A stretch of DNA of 64,000 nt. Origin: Gluconobacter albidus (lineage in GTDB: Bacteria > Pseudomonadota > Alphaproteobacteria > Acetobacterales > Acetobacteraceae). Location: NCBI RefSeq assembly GCF_002723915.1, contig NZ_BEWL01000001.1, positions 186,001-250,000 on the forward strand, written 5' to 3'. How positions within the stretch are numbered: position 1 is the first letter of the stretch; every line of letters starts with the position of its first letter. The notes below the pieces were generated by a model. That model did not search any database, had not been told where the DNA came from, and was given only the letters and a program-made list of their open reading frames with translations. Shown here piece after piece: positions 21,753-28,371 of this stretch. The translations under genes were made by a program, and so were the position numbers.

Positions 21753-23018
21753 ATGCCCGATACGATTGAAGTCACCAGACTCGATAACGGCCTGACCATC
21801 ATCACCGAACGAATGGACCGTGTTGAAACCGTGTCTTTCGGAGCCTATGTCTCCATCGGCACGCGCGACGAGACTGCCGCCAATAACGGCGTTTCCCACT
21901 TCCTCGAACACATGGCCTTCAAGGGCACCGAACGCCGCTCAGCGGCGCAGATCGCCGAAGACATCGAGAATGTTGGCGGCTATATCAACGCCTATACCGC
22001 CCGCGAAACCACAGCCTATTACGTCAAGCTGCTGAAGAACGACCTCGCCCTCGGCGTGGACATCATCGGCGACATCCTGACCCACAGCACGTTTCTGGAC
22101 GCCGAAATCGAGCGCGAACGTGGCGTGATTCTTCAGGAAATCGGTCAGGCCAACGACACCCCGGACGACATCATCTTCGACCAGTTCCAGGAACGCGCCT
22201 TCCCCGAACAGCCCATGGGCCGCCCCACGCTGGGCTCGGAAGACCTCGTCTCGACCATGACGCGCGACACGCTCATGTCCTACATGCGCGAGCACTACAC
22301 GACCCACAACATCACCATCGCCGCCGCCGGAAACCTGCACCATCAGGACGTCGTGGATCTGGTGAAGGAGCATTTCCGCGACCTTCCCTCCCATCAGACA
22401 CCCCGTCCCCGCGGCGCGGCCTATGAAGGCGGCGAACTTCGCACAACCCGCGAACTGGATCAGGCCCATCTCGTCATGGGCTTCCCGTCCGTTAGCTACA
22501 TGCATCCTGACCATTACGCGGTCATGATTCTCTCGACGCTCCTCGGCGGCGGCATGTCTTCGCGCCTGTTCCAGGAAATCCGTGAGCGCCGCGGTCTGGT
22601 CTACAGCGTCTATTCCTTCGCCTCCCCCTTCAGCGACAGCGGCCTGTTCGGCCTCTATGCTGGCACAGGCGAGGAGCAGGCTGCCGAACTCGTCCCCGTC
22701 ATGATCGACGAACTCAAGCGCCTTCAGGATGGCCTGAGCGAAGCGGAACTCTCCCGCGCCCGCGCCCAGCTCAAATCCTCACTCCTGATGTCGCTGGAAA
22801 GCACCGGCAGCCGCTGCGAACAGCTCGCCCGCCAGATCCAGGTCCATAACCGCCCGATCCCCACGGCCGAAACGGTCGGCAAGATTGATGCGGTGACGGA
22901 AGACGACATCCTGCGCGTCGCCCGCACCATTTTCTCCGGCACGCCGACCTTCACCGCCATCGGCCCCGTCGGCAACATGCCCTCCCTGGAGGACATCACA
23001 GCAAGGCTCGCCGCATGA
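21753..23018 (+). CDS. M16-family zinc metallopeptidase (processing-peptidase type)
   Basis: A 421-residue protein with the inverted zinc motif HFLEHMAFKGT and the downstream ERGVILQEI segment that supplies the third ligand. The C-terminal half has the inactive-repeat features, including the GGGMSSRLFQEIRE motif and VYSFASPFSDSGLF. It is the bacterial relative of mitochondrial processing peptidase beta. No signal peptide is seen, so it is probably cytosolic. It shares an ATGA overlap with pmbA, forming an operon of two proteolysis-related genes. Confidence 0.93.
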   Translation: MPDTIEVTRLDNGLTIITERMDRVETVSFGAYVSIGTRDETAANNGVSHFLEHMAFKGTERRSAAQIAEDIENVGGYINAYTARETTAYYVKLLKNDLALGVDIIGDILTHSTFLDAEIERERGVILQEIGQANDTPDDIIFDQFQERAFPEQPMGRPTLGSEDLVSTMTRDTLMSYMREHYTTHNITIAAAGNLHHQDVVDLVKEHFRDLPSHQTPRPRGAAYEGGELRTTRELDQAHLVMGFPSVSYMHPDHYAVMILSTLLGGGMSSRLFQEIRERRGLVYSVYSFASPFSDSGLFGLYAGTGEEQAAELVPVMIDELKRLQDGLSEAELSRARAQLKSSLLMSLESTGSRCEQLARQIQVHNRPIPTAETVGKIDAVTEDDILRVARTIFSGTPTFTAIGPVGNMPSLEDITARLAA

Positions 23019-24346
23019 CCACAACGCCCGTCGAAGCCCTCCTCGCCGCAGCCCGCCGCCACGGCGCAGACCATGCGGATGCCATTCTTGTCCGCGACGA
23101 GTCCGAATCCGCGCTCGTCCGCAAGGGCGTCCCCGAAGGTATCGAGCGCTCCGAAAGCGTCGCCCTCGGACTACGTGTCTTTCGCGGCAAACGCGCAGCG
23201 ACGGTTTCGACCAGCGTTCTGAACGAGGCCGAATTCGACCGTCTCGCCGAACAGGCCTGCGCCATGGCTCTCGTCATCCCCGAAGACCAGTATGCCGGCC
23301 TCGCCGAAGCCGCCCTTCAGGGCCGTTTCGACGCCGCCGGACTGGACATCGAATGCAGCTCCGCCCCAAGCATGGACGACCTGCTCGCCCGCGCCCGCGA
23401 AGCCGAGGATACCGCCCTGTCCTTTGAAGGCATCACCAACACCAACGGCGCCTCCGCCGGTCACGGCCGCACCTCGGTCGCACTCGGCACCTCGGCAGGC
23501 TTCTTCGGCGCCTACAGCCGCACCGCACACTCCACCAGCGCCAGCGTCCTCGCCGGCGAAGGTGCCACGATGCAGCGCGACTACGCCTATCGCAGCGCCG
23601 TGCATCTCGAAGACCTCGAAAGCGCGGACATTATCGGTCGTGAAGCCGCCGAGCGGGTGCTGGCACGCATCAATCCCGGCCGCCCCCGCACCGGCACTTA
23701 CAGCGTCATTTATGACCCGCGCGTCTCCGCATCTCTGCTCGGCCATCTGGTCGGCGCCATCAACGGTGCGGCCATCGCACGGGGCACATCTTTCCTCAAG
23801 GACAGCCTCGGCAAGCAGATCCTCTCCTCGGGCCTGACCGTGCATGACGATCCGCGCCGCATCCGGGGCGCGGCATCCCGCCCCTTCGACGCCGAAGGCT
23901 GTGCTGCTCTTCCGCTGGATCTGATCGCAAACGGCGTCCTCCAGACCTGGCTGCTCGACTCCCGCAGCGGCCGCCAGCTCAACATGCCCACGAACGGCCG
24001 CGCCAGCCGCGGCGTCGCCTCGCCGCCTTCCCCGAGTGTGACAAACCTTCATCTTGCAGCCGGAACCCTTTCTTCCGAGGCCCTGCGTTCCAATATTATT
24101 GAAGGGATTCTGATCACCGAACTCATGGGTTCATCGGTCAACATGCTGACTGGCGATTACAGCCGTGGCGCTTCGGGCTTCATGATCCGCAACGGCGAGA
24201 TCGCCGAGCCCGTCGCCGAACTCACGGTGGCAGGCAACCTGAAAGACATGTTTGCCCGCATGATTCCGGGCAGTGATCTAATGTTCCGGCAGAGCGTTAA
24301 TGCTCCGAGTATCCGGATCGACGGCATGAACATTGCAGGACTTTGA
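23015..24346 (+). CDS. pmbA: TldD/PmbA-family protein (PmbA)
   Basis: A 443-residue protein of the PmbA type (short form without the TldD HExxxH zinc motif). Marker segments are SVALGLRVFRGKRAA, IPEDQYAGLAE, GTYSVIYDPRVSASLLGHL, and the C-terminal GDYSRGASGFMIRNGEIAEPV. PmbA acts with TldD as a heterodimeric protease in processing of peptides such as microcin B17 and in CcdA turnover; tldD is not in this window. It overlaps both neighbours (ATGA upstream, TGATG downstream), so translation of the three genes is probably coupled. Confidence 0.92.
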   Translation: MTTTPVEALLAAARRHGADHADAILVRDESESALVRKGVPEGIERSESVALGLRVFRGKRAATVSTSVLNEAEFDRLAEQACAMALVIPEDQYAGLAEAALQGRFDAAGLDIECSSAPSMDDLLARAREAEDTALSFEGITNTNGASAGHGRTSVALGTSAGFFGAYSRTAHSTSASVLAGEGATMQRDYAYRSAVHLEDLESADIIGREAAERVLARINPGRPRTGTYSVIYDPRVSASLLGHLVGAINGAAIARGTSFLKDSLGKQILSSGLTVHDDPRRIRGAASRPFDAEGCAALPLDLIANGVLQTWLLDSRSGRQLNMPTNGRASRGVASPPSPSVTNLHLAAGTLSSEALRSNIIEGILITELMGSSVNMLTGDYSRGASGFMIRNGEIAEPVAELTVAGNLKDMFARMIPGSDLMFRQSVNAPSIRIDGMNIAGL

Positions 24347-25296
24347 TGCGTAATTTTCGACTTCTCCCGATCGCCTTTGCCTTTCTCTGCGTCCTCGGAA
24401 CCGCAGACGCACGGCCAGGCGGCGGCAGCTCCATCGGAAGCCGTGGCTCCCACACCTGGAGCGCGCCCCCGCGCACATCCATCACGCCCGGCTGGGCCCG
24501 CCCGATGGACCAGTCGGCCACCCCGCGTCCGTCGCCCAATTACGGCGCACCCGGCTATGCCTCTCCGGCCCGTCCTATGCCCAGTTACGGCGCTCCGGCA
24601 TACAGGCCCTCCTACCCTGTCCGCCATCCGTTCCTGAGCGGCTTCGCAGGTGGCTTTCTGGGCGCGGGCCTCTTCGGTCTGCTGAGCGGTCACGGCATGA
24701 TGGGCGGCATGACAGGCGGCACGTCCTTCTTTGGCTTCCTGTTTCAGGTCCTTATCATCGGTGGCCTGATCGCGTTCGTGCTTCGCATGTTCGGCAACCG
24801 CCGCCAGAACCAGATGAGCGGAAGCCCGATGGGCATGCCGTCATCTGCTGGCGCGGCACCGCCTTTCGGCAATAATGGCGGCAGCACCCCCGTGACGCTT
24901 ACCAACGACGACTACACGAGCTTCCAGAGGCTCCTGCTCGACATCCAGGCCGCCTGGAGCGCACAGAACATGCGCGCGCTCTCCAACATGGCCACTCCGG
25001 AAATGACGGGCTATTTCAACGCCCAGCTTTCCGATCTGGCGAGCCGTGGCGCACGGAACATCGTGTCCAACGTCCAGTTCCAGCGCGGAGACCTCTCCGA
25101 AGCCTGGCGCGAAGGTAACCTCACCTACGCAACCGTCGCCATGCGCTACTCCATGACGGACGTCACCACGGACTCCATGGGCAACGTCATCGACGGCAGT
25201 TCCACCGAGCCCGTCACCGTGACCGAACTCTGGACCTTCGTCCGCGCCGACGGCCGCGGCAACTGGATCCTCTCCGCCATCCAGCAGGCTGGCTGA
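24346..25296 (+). CDS. Tim44-like domain membrane protein with Gly/Pro-rich N-terminus
   Basis: About 316 residues from ATG 24346, overlapping the pmbA stop by one base. The N-terminus is a signal peptide (cleavage near ADARPGGGSS), followed by a Ser/Pro/Gly/Tyr-rich region to about residue 95, two hydrophobic segments (FLSGFAGGFLGAGLFGLLSG and FLFQVLIIGGLIAFVL), and a C-terminal Tim44/MRPL45-like domain ending VTELWTFVRADGRGNWILSAIQQ. This is the second Tim44-domain protein in the window. The family is common in proteobacteria and its role is unclear; here the domain probably lies on one side of the inner membrane next to a protease pair. Confidence 0.8.
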   Translation: MRNFRLLPIAFAFLCVLGTADARPGGGSSIGSRGSHTWSAPPRTSITPGWARPMDQSATPRPSPNYGAPGYASPARPMPSYGAPAYRPSYPVRHPFLSGFAGGFLGAGLFGLLSGHGMMGGMTGGTSFFGFLFQVLIIGGLIAFVLRMFGNRRQNQMSGSPMGMPSSAGAAPPFGNNGGSTPVTLTNDDYTSFQRLLLDIQAAWSAQNMRALSNMATPEMTGYFNAQLSDLASRGARNIVSNVQFQRGDLSEAWREGNLTYATVAMRYSMTDVTTDSMGNVIDGSSTEPVTVTELWTFVRADGRGNWILSAIQQAG

Positions 25297-25359: not shown

Positions 25360-25482
25360 TTAAAGCCGCGTCAGAGTAATCACATAAAAGATGACGGCCA
25401 GCAGCACCACGCCGCCAACAATCCCCGTAATCCGACTCAGTCGCCGTTTACGAGCCAGATCAATATCAGTGGTCATGCTCAT
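25360..25482 (-). CDS. 40-residue single-helix membrane protein, CoxF-like
   Basis: ATG 25482 overlaps the ctaB stop as ATGA and the frame ends at TAA 25360, giving 40 residues: a charged N-terminus (DIDLARKRRLSR) followed by one membrane helix (ITGIVGGVVLLAVIFYVITL) and TRL. Small proteins with the same pattern (basic KR segment, one helix ending in ITL-R) sit in alphaproteobacterial cytochrome oxidase clusters beside ctaB/ctaG and are called CoxF or oxidase assembly protein. The likeness is by topology and position only. Confidence 0.7.
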   Translation of the reverse strand: MSMTTDIDLARKRRLSRITGIVGGVVLLAVIFYVITLTRL

Positions 25483-26429
25483 CCGATCAGCACCCGGTCA
25501 ACCAGAAGCCCGCAGAACAGCAGGAACAGATAAGCGAGCGAATAGCGGAACGCGAACCGCGCCGGCTTGTCCTTCGTCAGGCTCACCCCTTCCGCATCCT
25601 GCTGGTCCGTCAGAACCCGGAACGCACACAGAATGAAGCCCAGATCCAGCAGGCTGGTCACAACCGTATAGGTCAGCCCGACTTCATGCACGAAGCTCGG
25701 CACCAGCGACACTGCCGCAAGAATGAACGTGTAGATCAGGATCTGCCAGCGCGTATGGCGTGCACCCTTCACGACCGGCAGCATCGGTATGCCCGCTTTG
25801 CCGTAATCCTTGCACGCATAGAGCGACAGAGACCAGAAATGCGGCGGCGTCCACAGGAACACGATCGCAAACATCGCCACCGGCAGCACGTCCATGGAAT
25901 TCATGGTTGCAGCCCAGCCGATCATCGGCGGAAACGCCCCCGCAGCCCCACCAATCACGATGTTCTGCGGCGTGCTTCGCTTGAGCCACATCGTGTAAAT
26001 GACGCTGTAGAAGAAAATCGAGAACGCCAGGATCCCGGCCGCCAGCGCATTCGTCGCCAGCCACAGCACAATCACGGACAGAACCGAGAGCACGACACCA
26101 TAAACCAGCGCCGCCTGCTCTGGCATCCGACCGTCGGGGATGGGGCGTACGACCGTCCGCTTCATAATCGCGTCAATGTCGCGGTCATACCACATGTTGA
26201 TCGCACCAGCGGCACCAGCCCCGATGCAGATGCACAGAATGGTAATCAGCCCGATGGGAATGGACGGCCAGCGCGGCGCCACGGCCATACCCGCAGCGCC
26301 CGTAAACACCACCAGCGAAATCACGCGCGGCTTGAGAAGCGCCAGCCATTCACGCAGGGAGGGATCACCATCCTTCCCCGGAATGGAAAAAACCCCCGAA
26401 GGGGCCAGAGGTGTCGCCGTATCGCTCAT
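25479..26429 (-). CDS. ctaB: Protohaem IX farnesyltransferase (haem O synthase)
   Basis: A 316-residue polytopic protein of the UbiA family. The prenyl-diphosphate site is NMWYDRDIDAIMKRTVVRPI, with the second Asp-rich loop later in the chain (YKDYGKAGIPMLPVV). It adds a farnesyl group to haem b to give haem O, needed for bo3-type ubiquinol oxidase or as precursor of haem A. It is linked on both sides by ATGA overlaps to the COX1-like gene upstream and the 40-residue protein downstream. cyoE would be an equivalent name. Confidence 0.95.
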   Translation of the reverse strand: MSDTATPLAPSGVFSIPGKDGDPSLREWLALLKPRVISLVVFTGAAGMAVAPRWPSIPIGLITILCICIGAGAAGAINMWYDRDIDAIMKRTVVRPIPDGRMPEQAALVYGVVLSVLSVIVLWLATNALAAGILAFSIFFYSVIYTMWLKRSTPQNIVIGGAAGAFPPMIGWAATMNSMDVLPVAMFAIVFLWTPPHFWSLSLYACKDYGKAGIPMLPVVKGARHTRWQILIYTFILAAVSLVPSFVHEVGLTYTVVTSLLDLGFILCAFRVLTDQQDAEGVSLTKDKPARFAFRYSLAYLFLLFCGLLVDRVLIG

Positions 26430-27604
26430 GCCGAGACCCGGGCACGCCCGGTCTCCCTCAACAGAAACAGCCCCACCAGCCCAAAGGCCAACAGGCTGAC
26501 ACCCATCAAAATCTCACCATAGATCATCACGCCCGGTACGATCGAACAGAACGCCCCCCCCAGCATGAGACCCGCATGAACCCGGCTCAGCAAAACAGGA
26601 ACACGACCGGGGAGAAGCCTCTCGACCCAGGCATAGAACCCGCCACACAACGCCATGATCCCGCCAAACGCCACGGCCGTATGATCGCCGGAATGCCCGG
26701 GCAACCCATCAGACAGCCAACCCGCAGCGAAGAGAAGAATGCTGCCAATCGCCCACAGCGCGGCGCCATCCAGATCGCGCTTCTGCTGCCACACATCCCG
26801 GCACAGCGCTCCAATCAGCACCACTGACGGCACGATCTGCGTCATCAGGACAAGGCTGGCCCCCACTCCGGACGCCAGAGAGCCATACAACCCGTCCATC
26901 CAGAACAGAGGTCCGCCAATCCCCATCACACCGAACACGTAAGGCGCAACCGTCCAAGACATTCCGCCACGAACCGTACGCGAGAGCAGCGCCGACGTGA
27001 CCAGCCCGAGTGCCGGGGTCAGCATCAGTGCCATTTCAGGCAGATGGAGCGTCTCAATCAGGACGTCGGTGGTCAGTCCGTCCATCATGCCGCGCGTGAC
27101 GACAGCAGCCAGAACAGGCGCGACCAGCACAACGCTGCACGCTGTGGCCAAAAGCGACCAGGCCAGCGGCGGCATGTCCCGGAAGCGGCAGGTGCGCCCT
27201 TCAAGGCAGGTAGTGATAACATCAATCGCTACCGCCAGAATACCGACCGACCAGAGCAGCAGTGCTACAAATGGCAGAACCGGTAACAGAACCACACCAG
27301 CTGACAGAAAACCGAAACCGGCCAGTGTCAGCCCCCGGAGCACCGTCTGGTCGGTCCCGAGGGCGACTGGCAGAAGCCACTGCCCGAAACCACCAAGCGC
27401 CGCAGGACACATGACGAAGAACGTCATGAGAATACCGTGGCAGAAGGCCTGCCCGCTCGTGGGGTGTGTCTGAAGAATTGGCAGGGCCAGCGACCCACCC
27501 AGCAGGCCCGCAAACAAGGCCAGCAGAATGAAGGATGTTCCGACTCGGCGGCCGGAGCGGGCCGAGGCAGTATCCGGAGCAGTATCGACGGCCTGATAAG
27601 TCAT
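26426..27604 (-). CDS. Degenerate cytochrome oxidase subunit I-like membrane protein
   Basis: A 392-residue protein with about 11-12 hydrophobic segments that aligns by eye with haem-copper oxidase subunit I (CtaD). The helix II block CHGILMTFFVMCPAALGGFG matches the family YHG-x-x-M-x-FF-x-x-x-P-x-x-x-GGFG and keeps the low-spin haem ligand as His56. The region equivalent to AHFHYV...FAIFAGFYFW reads GDHTAVAFGGIMALCGGFYAW, keeping the second low-spin ligand (His308) but not the high-spin haem ligand two residues before it. The HPEVY motif has become LPEMA (Leu188-Ala192), and the paired CuB histidines are replaced around Gly231-Pro232. At 392 residues it is much shorter than an active subunit I (over 500). 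It is encoded upstream of ctaB with an ATGA overlap. I infer that it cannot reduce oxygen; it might bind one haem, assist haem O use, or be a relic. Confidence 0.75.
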   Translation of the reverse strand: MTYQAVDTAPDTASARSGRRVGTSFILLALFAGLLGGSLALPILQTHPTSGQAFCHGILMTFFVMCPAALGGFGQWLLPVALGTDQTVLRGLTLAGFGFLSAGVVLLPVLPFVALLLWSVGILAVAIDVITTCLEGRTCRFRDMPPLAWSLLATACSVVLVAPVLAAVVTRGMMDGLTTDVLIETLHLPEMALMLTPALGLVTSALLSRTVRGGMSWTVAPYVFGVMGIGGPLFWMDGLYGSLASGVGASLVLMTQIVPSVVLIGALCRDVWQQKRDLDGAALWAIGSILLFAAGWLSDGLPGHSGDHTAVAFGGIMALCGGFYAWVERLLPGRVPVLLSRVHAGLMLGGAFCSIVPGVMIYGEILMGVSLLAFGLVGLFLLRETGRARVSA

Positions 27605-27690: not shown

Positions 27691-28371
27691 TCAGGCGACC
27701 AGGGCTGCTGCGTCGCTTTTACTCTCGCATTGCGGCAATGTCACGAGTGTAAACAGCCCTGCAGGAGGAACCGGGGTCAGCGTGGCACGACGCAGATCTT
27801 CCGGCGGCAGAAGCGACTCAATGGCGAAATCCGGATGCCAGCCCAGCGAACGCGATGCCCGCGCCATTCCACGCTCAACAGACAGACGCACGCCACCGGT
27901 TGCCAGAAAATGATTGACGAACAGGATATGTCCACCGGGCTTCACAACACGCTTGAGCTCGGCCAGCAGGCGGTCAGGATGCGGAACAACGGAAGCCACA
28001 AACATCGCCACCGCAATGTCGAAACTGTCGTCTTCGAACGTCGTGGCTTCCGCATCCATTTCCAGCAGATCGTCCACGTTCGTCAGATGCTCCTGAAGCA
28101 CCCGCATCCGTGCACGCTCCAGCATGTCTTCGGAAAGATCGATTCCCGTGATGCGCTTGCTCTGGGAATAAGCCGGCAGAGCCAGCCCCGTCCCGACGCC
28201 GACCTCCAGAACCCTTTCTCCTGGCAGGGCATTGACTGCAGCCACTGCTCTCTTGCGCCCGTAACCCGAGATACCGCCAAAAACAGTATCATAAACACGG
28301 GCCCAACGACGATAAGCCGTTTTGACGGCTTCCGCGTCCAGTGCCGAACGCGGGGAAAGGGTTGAGGACAT
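27691..28371 (-). CDS. pmtA: Phosphatidylethanolamine N-methyltransferase (PmtA type)
   Basis: A 226-residue class I SAM methyltransferase. The N-terminal YRRWARVYDTVFGGIS is characteristic of the Rhodobacter/Acetobacter PmtA group; motif I is VLEVGVGTGLALP, followed by ITGIDLSEDML and the post-II LKRVVKPGGHILFVNHF. It methylates phosphatidylethanolamine stepwise to phosphatidylcholine, an important membrane lipid of acetic acid bacteria. It is a separate unit, 86 bases from the COX1-like start and divergent from a small membrane protein. Ubiquinone methyltransferases are related, but lack the YRRWA-YD opening. Confidence 0.85.
   Translation of the reverse strand: MSSTLSPRSALDAEAVKTAYRRWARVYDTVFGGISGYGRKRAVAAVNALPGERVLEVGVGTGLALPAYSQSKRITGIDLSEDMLERARMRVLQEHLTNVDDLLEMDAEATTFEDDSFDIAVAMFVASVVPHPDRLLAELKRVVKPGGHILFVNHFLATGGVRLSVERGMARASRSLGWHPDFAIESLLPPEDLRRATLTPVPPAGLFTLVTLPQCESKSDAAALVA

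Follow-up and report, generated by a model that had tools for sequence, protein, structure and literature searches.

Why should a bacterium keep, directly before its haem O synthase gene, a gene for a relative of cytochrome oxidase subunit I from which the oxygen-reducing center is missing? The question is raised by a locus of Gluconobacter albidus, analyzed here within a stretch of 64,000 nucleotides (the window). The genes at this locus are as follows.

25360 to 25482, minus strand: 40-aa frame 3′ of ctaB, with one hydrophobic stretch by eye
25479 to 26429, minus strand: ctaB, for haem O synthase (320.4 bits with TIGR01473, cut-off 210.3)
26426 to 27604, minus strand: ctaD-like (COX1-derived) membrane protein of 392 aa with 12 predicted long helices (open reading frame, Pfam, phmmer, AlphaFold2, Foldseek)
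27691 to 28371, minus strand: class I methyltransferase (highest-scoring NCBIfam family PmtA, with 154.7 bits and thus short of the cut-off of 390)

Family membership and ligand pattern of the protein

The original prediction of a COX1-like protein of 392 residues at 26426 to 27604 was borne out on the minus strand, where the open frame runs from 27604 to 26426; the plus strand of this interval contains stops. The protein matched Pfam COX1 (PF00115) with 49.7 bits (E = 3.5e-13; gathering cut-off 34.8). At E-values up to 1, COX1 was the sole Pfam match and Surf1 (PF02104) did not appear; neither Pfam nor the structural model predicted a soluble signalling domain. In a phmmer search of PDB sequences, subunit I of the R. 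sphaeroides aa3 oxidase came out at the top, and His56 and His308 fell opposite two histidines that we take to be its low-spin haem a ligands. An AlphaFold2 model, generated with 50 relatives (L076 and L086, for which no start codon was located, were omitted from this 50-row alignment, A2), had a mean pLDDT of 92.4 and twelve long helices. When this model was compared with the PDB using Foldseek, the 50 matches listed had a best E-value of 4.2e-10 and TM-scores by query length of 0.71 to 0.79, and each was a chain from a cytochrome oxidase, a quinol oxidase, or a supercomplex containing one. The structural match to COX1, on which the original prediction depended, is thus significant; its alignment to subunit I held, but not the restriction to helices II to XI, as the model has all twelve.

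By descent and fold, the protein belongs to haem-copper oxidase subunit I. It does not belong to the CtaD_CoxA equivalog: against the NCBIfam model TIGR02891 it scored 36.8 bits, compared to a cut-off of 670.75, and is therefore a relative rather than a member by the NCBI rule. What was kept and what was lost became clear from an alignment of 87 copies, 52 of which were less than 85% identical (mean pairwise identity 29%, lowest 15%). Two copies were excluded, one identical to the window (L021) and one at a contig end, without helix X (L088); two intact controls (L089 and L090) and the copy of genome G214 were also held outside the 87, and inspection of the G214 protein by eye found both histidines present. 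The positions that matter most are the following.

27437 to 27439, minus strand: codon of His56, low-spin haem ligand position in helix II, invariant in 87/87
27158 to 27160, minus strand: codon of Trp149, aligned to Trp208 of the intact COX1 L089, invariant in 87/87
27029 to 27043, minus strand: LPEMA (residues 188 to 192) replacing HPEVY in the alignment, with the CuB His and the cross-linked Tyr gone
26900 to 26902, minus strand: codon of Trp235, the Trp of the WAHHM motif (His-His pair gone here), invariant in 87/87
26681 to 26683, minus strand: codon of His308, low-spin haem ligand position in helix X, invariant in 87/87

When the 392 columns were ranked over the 52 non-redundant copies, only Met1, His56, His308, Trp149, and Trp235 were invariant. 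Both low-spin haem histidines of subunit I, which the original prediction had expected to be kept and to be conserved among homologues, were present in every one of the 87 copies. A chance alignment of His308 was ruled out by the helix that comes after it, which the near-invariant Tyr324 (50/52) and Trp326 (49/52) anchor in the alignment.

The oxygen center, on the other hand, is gone, as predicted in each particular. The CuB histidine of HPEVY, which reads LPEMA in the window, was found in none of the 87 copies. The columns of the CuB His-His pair held histidine in 29 and 7 copies, respectively, but never both together, and the window copy has Asp237-Gly238. The column of the high-spin haem histidine held histidine in a single copy, and the window copy has Gly306. 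The protein therefore lacks what makes subunit I an enzyme, namely three CuB histidines and a high-spin haem histidine. It also lacks the marks of the A family: judging from the eight commonest residues of each column, 51 of the 52 copies have no Tyr at the equivalent of Tyr288 (Ala192 in the window) and 51 of the 52 have no Lys at the equivalent of the K-channel Lys362 (Leu263 in the window). The Arg-Arg loop, which presumably holds the haem propionates in oxidases, is deleted in 51 of the 52 copies, so any bound haem would sit differently. An Arg position that we take to contact the haem A formyl group in the bovine oxidase was poorly kept (Arg in 6/52). With the ligand pair kept and the binuclear ligands gone, the loss is confined to the oxygen center and its surroundings.

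Compared to CtaD/CoxA, the A-family subunit I of aa3 oxidases, the ctaD-like protein shares the locus (methyltransferase upstream, ctaB downstream), the 12-helix fold, the low-spin histidine pair, and the Trp of WAHHM, but not the CuB ligand set, the cross-linked Tyr, the high-spin histidine, the K-channel Lys (in the window), or the Arg-Arg loop. It is also shorter, with 390 to 478 aa in the 52 copies compared versus 537 to 639 aa in 16 intact neighbors. In those neighbors, which are ctaB-linked COX1 frames of more than 520 aa from other Acetobacteraceae, the four motifs tested were intact in 16 of 16.

A gene of this kind has been described before. A passage of PMC10715153, citing Matsutani 2014, reports a 'deranged' ctaD beside ctaB that is without all cofactor ligands, and a passage of PMC5158111 reports that ctaB (APT_01774) and ctaD (APT_01775) are conserved in three A. 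pasteurianus genomes. By description, the 'deranged COX1-like protein' of Acetobacter is the same gene, adjoining ctaB and with the same loss of oxidase function. However, the published protein is described as having no ligands, whereas here both low-spin ligands are invariant in 87 of 87 copies and purifying selection acts on the gene. The present data confirm the published gene and its place, and the alignment contradicts the published loss of all ligands. Our literature search found no report of conserved low-spin ligands, and such a report may still exist. The main text of an RNA-seq study of G. oxydans 621H (PMC5756330) never mentions ctaB, ctaD, or heme and offers no expression evidence. 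Related literature includes passages of PMC6431628, PMC9171043, and PMC4013037.

Distribution, selection, and descent

Of 299 Acetobacteraceae genomes, at least 69 carry the ctaD-like gene, and these carriers span 21 genera; a protein search gave at least 68 of them, and a profile search added G214, which the single-protein search had missed. The species collection contributed 20 Gluconobacter loci with the gene. Judging by the literature and by how they group with Gluconobacter, the carriers are probably the acetic acid bacteria, which are grown industrially and among which Gluconobacter is commonly used in the laboratory. Among 115 genomes of the class, which are a sample and no census, the short form occurred only in the window genome (G000) and G040, both members of this same group. 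Other long matches in these genomes were to longer frames of COX1 or CyoB size, the exceptions being contig-end pieces, pieces split over matches, and one frame with a stop.

The gene has remained under constraint. The median dN/dS was 0.082 for the ctaD-like gene versus 0.034 for ctaB (from the 82 Gluconobacter pairs, out of 210, whose dS lay inside the limits), and no internal stop was found in any copy among the matches listed.

How the short gene arose was approached with two gene trees. In the ctaB tree (121 rows, 90 after merging those more than 96% identical), 57 of 58 rows labelled as short fell into a single clade, supported at 99/92, that included no intact ctaD. This clade also held L094, where ctaB lies at the edge of the stretch and no upstream gene is visible. 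The 58th row, L113, lies outside the clade and is the 111-aa end of an edge-cut COX1 that is 84.5% identical to the intact L089. In the UvrB tree (30 rows), by contrast, G086, which has an intact ctaD, joined the carriers G056 and G071 (support 95/89). Because of this conflict, either one gene tree is wrong at G086 or the gene was rebuilt twice. A single origin of the short gene is likely rather than certain; if there were two origins, the low-spin pair was kept twice.

The neighborhood points to descent in situ. The same methyltransferase that lies before the short gene, as a conserved upstream neighbor, also lies upstream of intact ctaD-ctaB (L089 and L090, genes in between aside). The short gene is therefore best read as derived from ctaD by vertical inheritance, without a change of position. 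Its retention was not automatic: at locus L106 ctaB comes straight after the methyltransferase and the available stretch contains no COX1 gene, and it seems that ctaD was removed from the same place in this other Acetobacteraceae lineage.

Genomic company and possible function

In all 87 loci (L001 to L087), the ctaD-like gene lay directly 5′ of ctaB, with a gap of −16 to +16 nt; 60 of them had a 4-nt overlap, and these gap counts depend on the start codons picked by our script. In the window the stop of the ctaD-like gene overlaps the ctaB start (26429 to 25479, minus strand) as ATGA, just as had been predicted for the haem O synthase gene. The association extends to the bo3 ubiquinol oxidase, as both ctaB and the bo3 subunit I gene (cyoB) were present in 69 of the 69 carriers found. 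In five genomes (G029, G066, G070, G116, and G210), no match to the ctaD-like gene, CyoB, or CtaA was found, and the ctaB matches were weak and of the UbiA type; these are small genomes of 1.7 to 2.1 Mb. In the UvrB tree, four of the five fell with the carriers G101, G032, and G061 (100/100) and G210 fell with carriers of its own genus (87/76). As these genomes group with carriers, the gene, ctaB, and CyoB were lost jointly, and at least twice. Loss together with ctaB is in part what any operon predicts. In the window genome, however, cyoB lies about 55 kb from ctaB, so the co-loss was not one small deletion.

Other partners did not follow the gene. First, the haem A synthase CtaA was present in 36 of 69 carriers and absent from 33, so haem A is no general need; with the formyl-group Arg kept in 6 of 52 copies, a link to haem A was rejected as general. 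A passage of PMC9145763 describes CtaA-CtaB complexes in which CtaB pairs with a membrane haem protein. CtaA resembles what is proposed for the ctaD-like protein, a membrane haem protein partnering CtaB, but it belongs to a different family (PF02628) and is missing from those 33 carriers. Second, bc1 cytochrome b (PF00032) was matched in 56 of 69 carriers and in 4 of the 5 gene-less genomes, leaving 13 carriers with no match. A link to bc1 or cytochrome c was unsupported, as the presence of the ctaD-like gene was independent of the bc1 complex. Third, Surf1 (PF02104), a haem chaperone according to a passage of PMC5249081, was matched in none of 74 genomes of the group. Its work is of the kind proposed here, keeping hold of haem that is to be inserted into subunit I, but it is of an unrelated family. 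It was found in 16 of 16 tested genomes with an intact ctaB-linked ctaD and in 0 of 5 with ctaB alone; the argument from Surf1 is weak because these five ctaB-only genomes also do without it.

Collectively, the conserved ligand pair, the purifying selection, and the fixed place before ctaB point to a working protein with one low-spin haem, and with a tie to ctaB and bo3 and none to haem A or bc1, haem handling for bo3 is favored over electron transfer to or from cytochrome c. Among the roles listed in the original prediction, which also included a sensor and a decaying relic, the gene partner and the co-loss with ctaB and bo3 speak most for a haem-binding assembly or carrier factor. Our preferred reading, to which we give nearly but not quite an even chance, is a bis-histidine single-haem membrane protein that handles haem b or haem o between CtaB and the assembly of bo3. 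At this locus, the acetic acid bacteria lineage would have lost the aa3 cytochrome c oxidase, with reliance shifting to the bo3 ubiquinol oxidase, and the old ctaD beside ctaB may have been kept and rebuilt as a smaller protein, with the 12-helix COX1 scaffold and its bis-histidine low-spin site (His56 and His308) retained and the CuB-haem oxygen center gone. The site would then most likely bind one haem, b or o, and scarcely haem A where haem A synthase is missing, as it is from 33 of 69 genomes. Next to CtaB, the protein may hold haem where haem O is made or pass it to bo3 subunit I. What we infer is haem occupancy of the site, contact between the protein and CtaB, and the direction in which haem would move. 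A more specific form, in which the protein is a dedicated carrier of a single haem, picking up haem b or new haem O at CtaB and loading the bo3 oxidase, is offered tentatively, as a possibility on which we would not rely.

If the protein is indeed a conserved single-haem protein, it is a respiratory subunit that was stripped of catalysis and reused, and it is a candidate for how hydrophobic, membrane-made haems reach oxidase subunit I without Surf1. If the carrier reading is true, a subunit I that no longer touches oxygen has become assembly machinery for another oxidase.

Alternatively, the role could be purely structural: the protein would stabilize CtaB in the membrane, any haem would only aid its folding, and no haem would be transferred. 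Section 16 of PMC10715153 suggests that the ctaD-like protein was kept with CtaB and probably stabilizes it, and the tight operon in 87 of 87 loci fits this. However, a pure scaffold leaves it unexplained why two of the four invariant columns, Met1 aside, are haem-ligand histidines. Furthermore, five Acetobacteraceae genomes outside the group (G001, G053, G179, G249, and G077) have ctaB with no COX1-like frame in about 1.4 kb upstream (loci L106, L107, L117, L109, and L115, for G179, G249, G053 of genus g54, G001, and G077). These genomes also count against our preferred reading, as does the E. coli bo3 oxidase, for which, according to a passage of PMC9145763, haem O synthase is the one assembly protein known; CtaB and bo3 thus need no such partner in general. 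We consider this structural role unlikely, if still a serious competitor.

A different role would be that of a b-type cytochrome that is merely co-transcribed with ctaB and that either carries electrons supplied by quinol or cytochrome c or acts as a sensor of haem, oxygen, or redox state. A bis-histidine low-spin haem is the usual electron-transfer site in the haem-copper oxidase superfamily, so that the kept ligand pair would suit it. An outlet for cytochrome c may also be wanted, as a passage of PMC5112900 describes Bombella as having bc1 and cytochrome c and no cytochrome c oxidase genes. The gene does not track bc1, however, since 13 of 69 carriers are without cytochrome b and 4 of 5 gene-less genomes have one. 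At least 14 of 69 carriers own a separate subunit I frame of at least 548 aa, scoring 400.9 to 440.4 bits against the CyoB model; 4 of the 14 were inspected, and their His-His and HFHY motifs were intact. The Arg-Arg loop is gone as well, and no soluble signalling domain is predicted. Nothing observed speaks positively for a sensor. A redox or sensing function is rather doubtful on these grounds.

It is improbable that the histidine pair holds a non-haem cargo or is structural, for example as a metal site, in a helper protein of CtaB and bo3. The deletion in 51 of 52 copies of the Arg-Arg loop, the presumed holder of propionates, would suit such a site, and haem binding is itself deduced; but both histidines occupy the two positions that ligate haem a in this same fold, and the gene sits next to that for haem O synthase.

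Finally, the function of ctaD in Acetobacter has reportedly been lost through accumulated mutations, a view ascribed to Matsutani in 2014, and the translational overlap with ctaB in 60 of 87 loci could keep a decaying relic in place because its translation leads into ctaB; yet simple decay is ruled out by the dN/dS of 0.082, the intact frames of all copies among the matches listed, and two haem-ligand histidines and two tryptophans that are invariant in 87 of 87, and given also the high-confidence fold and the L106 lineage, in which the methyltransferase comes directly before ctaB with ctaD gone, we regard the relic as hardly credible. With the oxygen center gone and both low-spin clamps kept, this looks like a working haem-binding protein and no dying gene.

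Neighboring frames and fragments

The 40-residue protein that had been predicted next to ctaB was recovered as a frame from 25482 to 25360, but not as a CoxF-like protein, as Pfam and NCBIfam searches gave no family match. Its identity across the 20 Gluconobacter loci ranged from 58 to 100%, and blastp over the scanned loci detected it in Gluconobacter only and in no other genus; possibly it is a small membrane protein that evolves rapidly.

In genome G013, a second, broken ctaB-like piece (C1:1446335-1446472; 54% identity, three internal stops) lies just 3′ of the intact ctaB. The same contig holds a UvrB-like piece (C1:1441114-1441326; 73% identity, residues 477 to 548) near the ctaD-like gene and apart from the full-length UvrB. 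Together, these two pieces hint at a local duplication.

Three plus-strand genes of the window, at 24343 to 25296, 23015 to 24346, and 21753 to 23018, converge on the ctaD-like gene and ctaB; we take them to encode a Tim44-like protein, a TldD-like protein, and an M16-peptidase-like protein, respectively. This convergent three-gene arrangement is kept in most loci of the group that are at least 7 kb long.
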